Assembly: GCA_029261925.1 (NCBI GenBank)
Contig: JAJDAJ010000020.1
Coordinates: 1-64,000, forward strand
Length of the DNA stretch: 64,000 nucleotides
Direction of reading: 5' to 3'
From: Deltaproteobacteria bacterium
GTDB lineage: Bacteria > Myxococcota_A > UBA9160 > SZUA-336
Made by a program: the position numbers and the translations under genes. The notes beneath the pieces were generated by a model. It worked only from the letters and a program-made list of their open reading frames with translations, was not told the origin of the DNA and did no database searches. Every line of letters begins with the position of its first letter. Position 1 is the first letter of the stretch. Shown one piece after another: positions 36,996-40,179 of the stretch.

Positions 36996-37805
36996 ATGAG
37001 CCAGTCGAGCCCGCACGACGAGCGCGCCCTCGACGTCCTGTCCACCCTGATGGGATCCGCGCAGGCCGCTCGCGACCTGTCCGGGAGCCTCGGGAGCCGC
37101 GGTGCGCACGGCCAGCTCGGCCATCACTGGGGCTTCGGCGCCATCTGGGGCCGCACCGAGCTCTCGCGGCGCGATCGCAGCCTGGCCGTGATCTCCTTCC
37201 AGATCGCGCACGAGCGCAACACGGAGCTGCGCTTCCACATCAACGGCGGGCTCAATCACGGCCTGAGCATCGAGGAGATCGACGAGACGATCGTCCAGAT
37301 CTCCACCTACGGAGGCGCGGCCCTCGGGGTCGCCGCCATGAACGTCATGAGCGCGGTGGTGGCCGGGCGAGAGGGGACCGACACGCGGCACACGCCGCCC
37401 GCTCCCCTGGAGCCCAAGGACCCGGCCAAGCGACGGGCCGACGGGCTCGACGTGCTCGGGACCCTGCTGGGCCACCTGCCGCTGAGCCGGGAGCAGCTCG
37501 AGGCGAGCATCCTCGCAGAGGGCTTCATGGGTGAGCTGGTCCTCGACTGGGCCTTCGGCGACGTCTGGTCCCGACCGCAGCTCTCGCGCCGCGACCGCAG
37601 CTTCGTGGTGATCTCTGCGCTGGCCGCGCTGAGCCACCAGCACGAGCTCGAGATCCACCTGCAGGGCGCGCTCAATCACGGCGTCACTCGCACCGAGATC
37701 GAGGAGATCATGATCACGCTGGCGCTCTACGGTGGATTCCCGCTCGCGATCGATGGCCTGAGGCTGGCACGCCAGGTCTTCGAGCGCGCCGACGCTCCCG
37801 CCTAG
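36996..37805 (+). CDS. Two-domain carboxymuconolactone decarboxylase (CMD)-like protein
   Basis: The 269-residue protein holds two CMD/AhpD-fold domains, about 10-125 and 145-265. Each has a LSRRDRS(L/F)xVIS signature, a His-rich helix and a GGLNHG or GALNHG-(I/V)xxxEI(E/D)E segment. It contains no cysteine at all, so it cannot act as an AhpD-type disulfide reductase and is closer to PcaC-type lyases. An AGGAAGGGG site precedes the ATG. It lies directly upstream of the UGA-containing AhpD-like gene. Confidence 0.85.
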   Translation: MSQSSPHDERALDVLSTLMGSAQAARDLSGSLGSRGAHGQLGHHWGFGAIWGRTELSRRDRSLAVISFQIAHERNTELRFHINGGLNHGLSIEEIDETIVQISTYGGAALGVAAMNVMSAVVAGREGTDTRHTPPAPLEPKDPAKRRADGLDVLGTLLGHLPLSREQLEASILAEGFMGELVLDWAFGDVWSRPQLSRRDRSFVVISALAALSHQHELEIHLQGALNHGVTRTEIEEIMITLALYGGFPLAIDGLRLARQVFERADAPA

Positions 37806-37865: not shown

Positions 37866-37901
37866 CGAGGCCCGCTCCCCCGGAGCGCGGACGGAGGCCC
37901 C

Positions 37902-38405
37902 ATGTCACGCATCGATCTGCCCCCGGGCGACGCCGACGAGACCGAGCGCCTGTTCAGCATGGCGCCCCACGTGAGCCAGGCCGCGGCCGGGCTGTCGTGG
38001 ACGGTGTACGACCACAGCCGGCTGCCGGTGCGCCTGCGCGAGCTGATGCGCATGCGCATCGCGCAGATCAACGACTGCCACGTCTGACTGGACACCCGGG
38101 CGGCGCAGTTGGCGCCCCACGATCTGTCCGAGGAGCTCTACGCGGGCGTTGCCGACTGGGCGACGCACCCCGGCTACAGCGACGCCGAGCGCATCGCGAT
38201 CGAGTACGCCGAGAAGTTCGCGGTGGACCACAAGAAGCTCGACGACGCCTTCTTCGCGCGCATGCGCGAGCACTACACCGACGAGCAGATCATGGAGATC
38301 TCCGTCTGCGTCGGCACCTGGCTGGCGCTGGGCCGCATCACCATGGTGATGGACGTCGACGTCTCCTGCCCGATCCGCCTGCCGCTCGAGGATCACGCGG
38401 AGTGA
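37902..38405 (+). CDS. AhpD/CMD-like selenoprotein candidate (UGA at 38085-38087)
   Basis: This 167-residue frame is interrupted once, at codon 62, by UGA and then continues in perfect homology to the family. The region reads LRELMRMRIAQINDCHV, UGA, LDTRAAQ, so a CxxC redox motif would be Cys59-His-Val-Sec62. Downstream, SEELYAGVADWATHPGYSDAERIAIEYAEKF matches ordinary CMD proteins. A hairpin at 38099-38118 has bacterial SECIS geometry. With Sec inserted it should be a thiol/selenol peroxidase-like or disulfide reductase protein. Without Sec it would be a 61-residue truncation. A nonsense mutation of Cys (TGC or TGT to TGA) is the alternative. Selenium genes lie outside the window. Confidence 0.8.
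38099..38118 (+). promoter_or_regulatory. Putative bacterial SECIS hairpin
   Basis: The stem begins 11 nt after the UGA. GG (38099-38100), a bulged C, and GGCGC (38102-38106) pair with GCGCC (38112-38116) and CC (38117-38118). The apical loop is AGUUG, with G in the second position and GU adjacent to it. E. coli SelB recognises a small hairpin at this distance, with a 5'-side bulge and a GU-containing loop. The fold is by eye. Confidence 0.65.
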
Positions 38406-38434
38406 GCCGCGGGACACCAGCCTTCCAGAGCGGC

Positions 38435-39079
38435 CTAGGGCTGCAGGCGCTCGACGCGCCAGCCGGCGGCGCTGCGGCTCCAGAGCGCGCGGTCGTGGAC
38501 GCGGGCGGGCCGGCTCACCCAGAGCTCGACGCGCTCGGCCGCCAGCACGTAGCCGCCCCAGCGATCGGGGCGCGGCACCTCGCCGGCCGGACCGCCGGCG
38601 CCGCCGAAGCGCTGCTCGACCGCCGCGAGCTTCTCGAGCAGCGCGGCGCGGCTCGCGATCGGCCGGCTCTGGTCACTGGCGCGCGCGGCCAGCCGTGCGT
38701 CGAGCGGACGCGAGGCGAAGTAGGCGTCGGAGTCCGCGTCGGCGGTGGGCTCGATCGCGCCCTCGACCCGCGCCTGCCGTCCGGGACCCGGCCAGTAGAA
38801 GACCGCGGCCGCACGCGGCCGGGCCGCCAGCTCGCGCCCCTTGCGACTGCTGCGATCGGTGTAGAAGACGAGCGCGCCGCGCGCCACGTCGATCTCCTTG
38901 CACAGCACCATGCGCACGGAGGGCGTGCCGTCGGCGTCGGCGGTCGCCAGCGCGATCGCGTGCGGATTCGGCTGCTGCGCGGCGGCGAACGCCTCGTCGA
39001 GCCAGCGCTTCAGGATCGGCAGCGGATCGCCGGGCAGGGGATCGCGCGCCAGCCAGGCGTCGGGGAGGGGGTCGGGCAC
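38435..39079 (-). CDS. pdxH: Pyridoxamine 5'-phosphate oxidase
   Basis: The 214-residue FMN enzyme oxidises pyridoxamine or pyridoxine phosphate to pyridoxal phosphate. Signatures include MVLCKEIDVARGALVFYTDRSSRKGRELAARPRAAAVFYW, PLDARLAARASDQSRPI and the C-terminal WGGYVLAAERVELW and RVHDRALW, ending in WRVERLQP. A GTG at 39079 gives the usual family length and lies 14 bp after the upstream stop. It completes a short minus-strand series of three genes. Confidence 0.93.
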   Translation of the reverse strand: MPDPLPDAWLARDPLPGDPLPILKRWLDEAFAAAQQPNPHAIALATADADGTPSVRMVLCKEIDVARGALVFYTDRSSRKGRELAARPRAAAVFYWPGPGRQARVEGAIEPTADADSDAYFASRPLDARLAARASDQSRPIASRAALLEKLAAVEQRFGGAGGPAGEVPRPDRWGGYVLAAERVELWVSRPARVHDRALWSRSAAGWRVERLQP

Positions 39080-39093
39080 CGGATCCGCGCCCG

Positions 39094-39519
39094 TCAGCCC
39101 GCGCTTCCGATCAGCTCGGGCCGGCCCGTCATGCCGGCGAACAGCAGGATCGCACCGAGCAGCAGCGCCGCGATCGCGTAGACGGTGATCGGCCCCGGGC
39201 GCGTGAGCGCCGTGATCAGGCGCAGGAACGGGGCCGGCCATGCGATCAGCACCAGCCCCTCGAGCGCGCTGATCCAGCCCAGCAGGCTGACCGTCACGGC
39301 GAGCGGATCGGTCCAGAGGTCGTGGATGATCGTCAGCGTCGCGCCCAGCGCGAAGGCGAGCACCCCCGTGATCGAGACCAGCGCCGGGGAGCCCGCGAGC
39401 TCGTCCAGCACGCCGCGCCAGCGCGCGGGCGCGGCGAGCAGCGAGATCCCCCCGGCCAGTGCGTAGACGCCGAACGCGGTCGCCAGCGAGAGCGTCAGGG
39501 CCGAGGTCGTGGTCAGCAC
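39094..39519 (-). CDS. Four-helix integral membrane protein, unknown
   Basis: This 141-residue protein is predominantly hydrophobic, with segments near 8-28, 48-65, 75-98 and 110-132. No motif was recognised. The GTG start lies 15 bp after the stop of the next upstream gene and the stop is 14 bp before pdxH, so cotranscription is likely. Confidence 0.65.
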   Translation of the reverse strand: MLTTTSALTLSLATAFGVYALAGGISLLAAPARWRGVLDELAGSPALVSITGVLAFALGATLTIIHDLWTDPLAVTVSLLGWISALEGLVLIAWPAPFLRLITALTRPGPITVYAIAALLLGAILLFAGMTGRPELIGSAG

Positions 39520-39534
39520 GCGACGTCGCCGGGC

Positions 39535-39966
39535 TCAGGGAGCGACCGGACGCGGATCGAGCCGCACGGGCTTGATCGGCGCCCAGAGCAGCATGGTGCG
39601 TCCGACGTAGTACCCGGCACCGTCCCCCTTGCCCATCAGGCGGGTCATGCGCTCGACGGCCTCGCGCGTCTGCACGGGCACGGCCGTGAACGGCTCGGGA
39701 TCGCCGTCCCGGATCAGCTCCACCTCCGGGTTGGCCTGCACGCGGCGGTACCAGCCCCGGAACCAGTGGCCCGACTCCACCCAGAGCTGGCCGTCGTCCT
39801 CGTGCAGGCTCAGCACCCGGTCCTGCGGCTCCCCGTCCGCGTCGTACGTGCGCAGGGTCGCGGTCGATCCCGCACGCGGCTGGAAGTAGCCGATGGCCGC
39901 GTCCAGGGCGAGCCCCAGGACGACGTACACGCCGAGCACGATCGCCAGGATGCGCACGACCTTCAT
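39535..39966 (-). CDS. Membrane-anchored DUF385/DDN-like flavin-fold protein
   Basis: The 143-residue protein has an N-terminal transmembrane helix (MKVVRILAIVLGVYVVLGLAL). A split-barrel-like domain follows, including LWVESGHWFRGWYRRVQANPEVEL. That pattern resembles deazaflavin-dependent nitroreductase/DUF385 proteins. Cofactor contacts cannot be verified by eye. With several LLM proteins nearby an F420-linked role is possible but unproven. Confidence 0.6.
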   Translation of the reverse strand: MKVVRILAIVLGVYVVLGLALDAAIGYFQPRAGSTATLRTYDADGEPQDRVLSLHEDDGQLWVESGHWFRGWYRRVQANPEVELIRDGDPEPFTAVPVQTREAVERMTRLMGKGDGAGYYVGRTMLLWAPIKPVRLDPRPVAP

Positions 39967-40179
39967 CCGACACCTCCCGCGGCTCCCGTCAGCGCGGGAG
40001 CGGCTTCGCCCGCATGATAGGCCGCGTCGCGCAGCGTCGGGGCGCGGCGAGGTGCCCGGTCCCCGCGGGGCAGGTTCGGAGCCCCCGGCTCCGAGACGGG
40101 CGTCGCAACCCGACGTGGGGCCCGCCCCGCGGCCGCACCGGGCCCGCCGGGTGGCACGGCGCTTGCTCCGGACCCGGGT

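Follow-up and report, generated by a model that had tools for sequence, protein, structure and literature searches.

The window, i.e., the whole stretch of 64,000 nucleotides analysed here, carries on its plus strand (37902-38405) a gene for a predicted selenoprotein of the CMD/AhpD fold, 167 amino acids long with selenocysteine (U) as residue 62. The frame from 37902 to 38402, read directly from the sequence, encodes 167 residues and contains a single in-frame UGA (codon 62, 38085-38087) and no other internal stop; an earlier note on this DNA had described the frame as open except for this codon, and its coordinates and content hold. A Shine-Dalgarno-like GGAGG (37893-37897, plus strand, likewise read directly) lies 4 nt 5' of the ATG at 37902, and the gene ends with an ordinary stop that is also a UGA (38403-38405), this codon apparently having a dual role in the host genome. 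A second CMD-family gene on the same strand (36996-37805), with two CMD stretches (102 bits) and a frame free of internal stops, lies upstream and ends 96 nt short of this gene. Directly downstream, a pyridoxamine 5'-phosphate oxidase gene is encoded convergently on the minus strand (38435-39973); its start is probably over-extended because the domain begins only near residue 325. Neither neighbour is common to the orthologue loci described below, and no gene neighbourhood is shared among these loci. Long ORFs also overlap the gene in other frames (37905-38417 on the minus strand and 37997-39181 on the plus strand, the latter without a match in a Pfam search), which is likely an effect of high GC.

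The window protein passes the gathering cut-off of the Pfam CMD family (PF02627; 35.7 bits vs. a cut-off of 23), and the match (residues 22-104) crosses the UGA, i.e., homology is present on both sides of this codon, as had been claimed. Within the sequence IND-Cys59-H-V-UGA-LDTRAAQ, the UGA occupies the second redox position of a CxxC-type motif in a family with Cys homologues, and the alignment supports this placement, which the earlier note had also proposed. The first residue of the resulting CxxU motif, Cys59 (38076-38078), is invariant in 34 of 34 aligned sequences. The cysteine expected opposite codon 62 was found in distant homologues (L027/L063, L037, L039, L058, and relatives in the PDB), whereas the closest relatives all have UGA. 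An AlphaFold2 model (pLDDT 84.6, pTM 0.80; residues 155-167 unreliable) predicts an all-helical AhpD-like fold, for which the best PDB match is 2gmy (E 4.8e-6) and the closest folds are Atu0492 and PA0269. Glu47 (38040-38042), invariant in the seven-orthologue alignment, is aligned with the Glu of PA0269 and, more generally, with the Glu that AhpD-fold proteins conserve 12 residues ahead of their first Cys. A third cysteine, Cys156 (38367-38369; VSCP motif), is conserved without exception in the seven orthologues; it falls within the C-terminal tail, which is modelled with low confidence.

In AhpD, a His positioned four residues beyond the second Cys serves as a proton relay. At this position, which is His in AhpD-type structures, the window protein and nearly all of its relatives have Arg (Arg66, i.e., U+4; 38097-38099). 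Thus, with respect to the classical pattern Glu-x11-CxxC-xxx-His, Glu47 and C59-x-x-U62 are in register, but Arg66 stands where His is expected. Of the earlier assignment to an "AhpD/CMD-family", the CMD part therefore stands, whereas classical AhpD does not: because Arg66 replaces the relay His, the family is, judging from sequence, CMD/"peroxidase-related" rather than classical AhpD, and TIGR00778 (AhpD core) is matched below its cut-off (22 vs. 27.8 bits). The nearest NCBIfam model is NF053654 (GroundWater_YciW, "YciW-related (seleno)protein"), which is matched across the Sec position and by all 34 aligned sequences; nonetheless, the score of 73.6 bits vs. an equivalog cut-off of 310 places the window protein outside that family. 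With 25.2 bits vs. a cut-off of 81.8, it is also outside the TIGR01926 peroxidase-related enzyme model as curated. Since it falls below every NCBIfam cut-off, its subfamily seems to be uncurated. Among structurally characterised relatives, the AhpD-like proteins PA0269 and Atu0492 (2ijc, 7xw1, 2gmy) share the fold (TM 0.69-0.74 by query length) and have Glu and CxxC in register but differ in carrying Cys for Sec62 and His for Arg66. Mycobacterium tuberculosis AhpD (1knc, 1gu9) belongs to the same superfamily and has a CxxC catalytic pair, but it is a weak fold match (E 0.5-1) and its relay His is not conserved in the window protein. The debrominase Bmp8 (6ohi) shares the CMD fold and matches in sequence over the redox region at 18-19% identity, a comparison that provides no evidence of dehalogenation for the window protein.

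AhpD-like selenoproteins with a CxxU motif (COG2128 YciW/TIGR01926) were described from the Sargasso Sea, GOS, and later data, and such AhpD-like/CMD-like proteins have been known from marine metagenomes since 2005 and are included in recent catalogues (PMC1088965, PMC2398784, PMC9312934, PMC13188914); the window protein is therefore a new representative of a selenoprotein type that has already been described. Like them, it combines a CMD/AhpD fold, CxxU, a putative bacterial SECIS directly after the UGA, and Cys homologues. It shares with the CMD-like selenoproteins both the Pfam family (PF02627, over cut-off) and the CxxU motif, the likeness to the published example, MBW1767730.1, resting on the description of family and motif (PMC9312934, PMC13188914).

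Six further distinct orthologues, 52-77% identical to the window protein (L021, 77%; L022, 71%; L024, 69%; L023 and L032, 66% each; L033, 52%), were found in other metagenome-assembled genomes among the host's relatives and in the GTDB contig collection; a search of IMG/VR returned no relative. Two of the orthologue records carry the label Myxococcota or Myxococcales; a full-text search of a partial literature collection returned no paper joining selenoproteins, selenocysteine, and Myxococcota. All seven orthologues, the window gene included, have UGA at the same codon (Cys, UAA, or UAG in none) and run in frame to their ends. Nonsynonymous distances before and after the UGA are similar (e.g., 0.165 and 0.165 for the window gene vs. 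L021 and 0.197 and 0.211 vs. L023), and dN is well below dS in nearly every orthologue pair, as estimated by NG86, a crude method, with synonymous distances that are partly saturated. Decayed downstream frames, which had been named as a possible objection, were found in none of the UGA-containing relatives; their frames are intact and, from the dN/dS pattern, constrained. Despite the limits of the method, a decaying frame downstream of the UGA can be regarded as excluded by these sequence comparisons.

The earlier note had suggested searching the genome for selA, selB, selC, and selD, and all four are present: tRNA-Sec (58 bits, over the Rfam cut-off; identified by ARAGORN as tRNA-SeC with anticodon TCA), selB (285 bits, or 310 with its C-terminal part), selA (499 bits), and selD (256 bits), the last three over their curated cut-offs. 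It should be noted that each of these genes could in principle be foreign because the host assembly is fragmented (111 contigs), has an estimated contamination of 5%, and carries the sel genes on contigs other than that of the window. However, the orthologue and selA occur together in a genome of the same genus, and selA exceeds its cut-off in all seven orthologue genomes. The window gene, selA, selB, and several window genes terminate with UGA, and no internal UGA occurs in the frames of selA, selB, and several other window genes. UGA is thus an ordinary stop in this genome as well and is not globally reassigned.

A putative SECIS hairpin (38099-38118, plus strand) starts 11 bases after the UGA. 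Its core stem (38102-38106 with 38112-38116) is extended by flanking pairs, contains a bulged C at 38101, and closes a loop, AGUUG (38107-38111), whose apical G (38108) is separated from the UGA by 20 nt. RNAfold of 38085-38125 recovered the hairpin with the 5' bulge and the G in the second loop position, as described in the earlier note, with an MFE of -14.4 kcal/mol. Although the fold is thus present, its energy alone is ordinary at this high GC content (z -0.51, with 58 of 200 shuffles folding at least equally well), as is that of a longer piece around it (z -0.89), and an Rfam search at the hairpin gave no SECIS match. The published bSECIS model specifies a loop of 3-9 nt, an upper stem of 4-16 bp, G in one of the first two loop positions, a UGA-to-loop distance of 16-37 nt, and an MFE at or below -7.5 (PMC13188914). 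The window hairpin lies within these ranges, with a 5-nt loop, a 5-bp core stem plus flanking pairs, G in second position, a spacing of 19 nt, and -14.4 kcal/mol. It is judged to be real because of comparison across species, not because of single-sequence energy.

This comparison was extended by a phylum-wide search with a profile of the orthologues, which yielded many more distant CMD genes (about 30-40% identical). In many of them a single stop interrupts the frame, and it is invariably UGA. Within the set L025-L062, such UGA-containing CMD genes number at least 23 distinct ones, most of them from the host's class, with the UGA at the same CxxU position in all 23 extracted. The host genome itself contains two such paralogues, L061 (contig C89, 20215-20253, minus strand) and L062 (contig C50, 87024-87062, plus strand), and one Cys paralogue (contig C103). 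Both L061 and L062 have one in-frame UGA at CxxU and a perfect 7-bp hairpin with the loop GGC or GGG, and on this basis they are probable further selenoproteins. A covariance model of the hairpin had strong matches in the host genome only to the three UGA-containing CMD genes, all of which belong to its training set; further matches (E 0.017 and worse, those on the minus strand not individually re-oriented) are unsupported.

Over the seven orthologues, 92% of the stem cells are paired, and the window copy keeps five of seven pairs in strict register, its bulged C38101 allowing the lower stem to pair in a shifted way. Stem covariation was 0.340 vs. 0.180 (sd 0.033), a value reached by none of 500 shuffles and far from attained in any slid register, and resampling of synonymous codons gave a mean of 33.9 pairs vs. 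the 45 of 49 observed, which none of 5000 trials reached; because the seven orthologues are related, both controls overstate independence. At column 18, which in each of the seven sequences is the synonymous third position of an Ala codon, G, C, and U all occur; in six of the seven sequences the base there pairs with column 32, a second codon position. In the 23 distinct distant UGA paralogues, 160 of 161 cells are paired in the same register (null mean 111; none of 3000 trials), the hairpin being a textbook one of seven pairs whose three-base loop begins with GG. The loop G occupies the same column in both groups, separated from the UGA by 20 bases. In the joint alignment, covariation is 0.565 vs. 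0.168 (none of 500), and both sides have changed at five of the seven pairs. In contrast, four Cys homologues, including L039 and the host's Cys paralogue, keep only one to four of the seven pairs. Thus, the SECIS-like fold looked for in alignments is conserved by compensatory change and absent in these Cys homologues. Folding a longer piece suggested an outer stem as well, pairing columns 5-10 with columns 40-45 (counted from the UGA), but it was unconserved in the register tested; in that test the inner stem had slid by one column and the outer pairing may be misplaced by one position, and this result is weak either way.

The evidence that the in-frame UGA is almost certainly decoded as selenocysteine, all of it read from genomes, is that this codon and the frame beyond it are both conserved, that the hairpin covaries, and that the Sec machinery is present. 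It is very probable that the gene encodes a full-length CMD/AhpD-fold selenoprotein of 167 residues, in which SelB and the hairpin recode codon 62 and Cys59 and Sec62 form a redox pair. SelB loaded with Sec-tRNA(Sec, UCA) would bind the hairpin starting 11 bases after the UGA, codon 62 would be recoded, and the Cys59-His-Val-Sec62 pair would lie near the end of the helix that also carries Glu47. In a reaction of the peroxidase or disulfide-reductase type, the attack would likely come from the Sec62 selenolate, with the thiol of Cys59 resolving the intermediate. We infer the actual insertion of Sec and the substrate, as well as the roles of Sec62 and Cys59, the latter from the family.

Other readings of the UGA have to be weighed against this one. 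Given that the window comes from a draft assembly and that the relatives are metagenome-assembled genomes, one might suspect that the UGA arose through faulty sequencing or assembly, or that it is a lone nonsense mutation, in what would be a pseudogene; however, a UGA at the identical codon in seven independent genomes, never UAA or UAG, together with purifying selection on the downstream frame at 52-77% identity, leaves this reading a negligible probability, and the seven orthologues refute it. Insertion of Cys or Trp by a canonical tRNA, or global reassignment of UGA, would likewise leave the frame intact. Such decoding is nonetheless very improbable in a host that ends selA, selB, and the window gene itself with UGA and possesses tRNA-Sec and the full Sec pathway; moreover, it needs no hairpin, whereas the hairpin is kept by covariation and is absent in Cys homologues.

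Termination at UGA competes with Sec insertion during Sec decoding, and it is therefore conceivable that the codon acts as a selenium-dependent switch yielding a 61-residue product with a role of its own under selenium scarcity. This, too, is highly unlikely: the short form would be missing Sec62 along with roughly two thirds of the fold, and the alignment shows no extra constraint on residues 1-61 vs. the rest.

Within the preferred reading, i.e., Sec insertion at codon 62, the seven orthologues might represent a Sec-only CMD subfamily with chemistry unlike that of AhpD, combining Cys59-Sec62 with Arg66 instead of the relay His and with the invariant Cys156 of a flexible C-terminal tail, which would perhaps resolve a selenenyl intermediate. 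The genomes searched contain no member of this subfamily with Cys at the site, but the proposal is tentative and rather doubtful. Standard annotation would probably label the window gene as truncated or as a pseudogene, and the case therefore corrects how no fewer than seven genomes are read; the correction also covers about two dozen CMD paralogues with UGA from the same phylum, most of the at least 23 genes found being likely annotated as truncated. It also provides an exceptionally clear natural experiment on bacterial SECIS elements, in which two CMD subfamilies about 35% identical share one hairpin geometry, with stem register and loop G kept under opposing coding constraints, alongside four Cys homologues without the hairpin. 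The 34-sequence tree has poor resolution, its long branches joining one another, and we therefore put no number on exchanges between Sec and Cys. In this tree, the Cys sequence L039 nests inside the UGA clade and retains a degraded hairpin, which suggests replacement of Sec by Cys.
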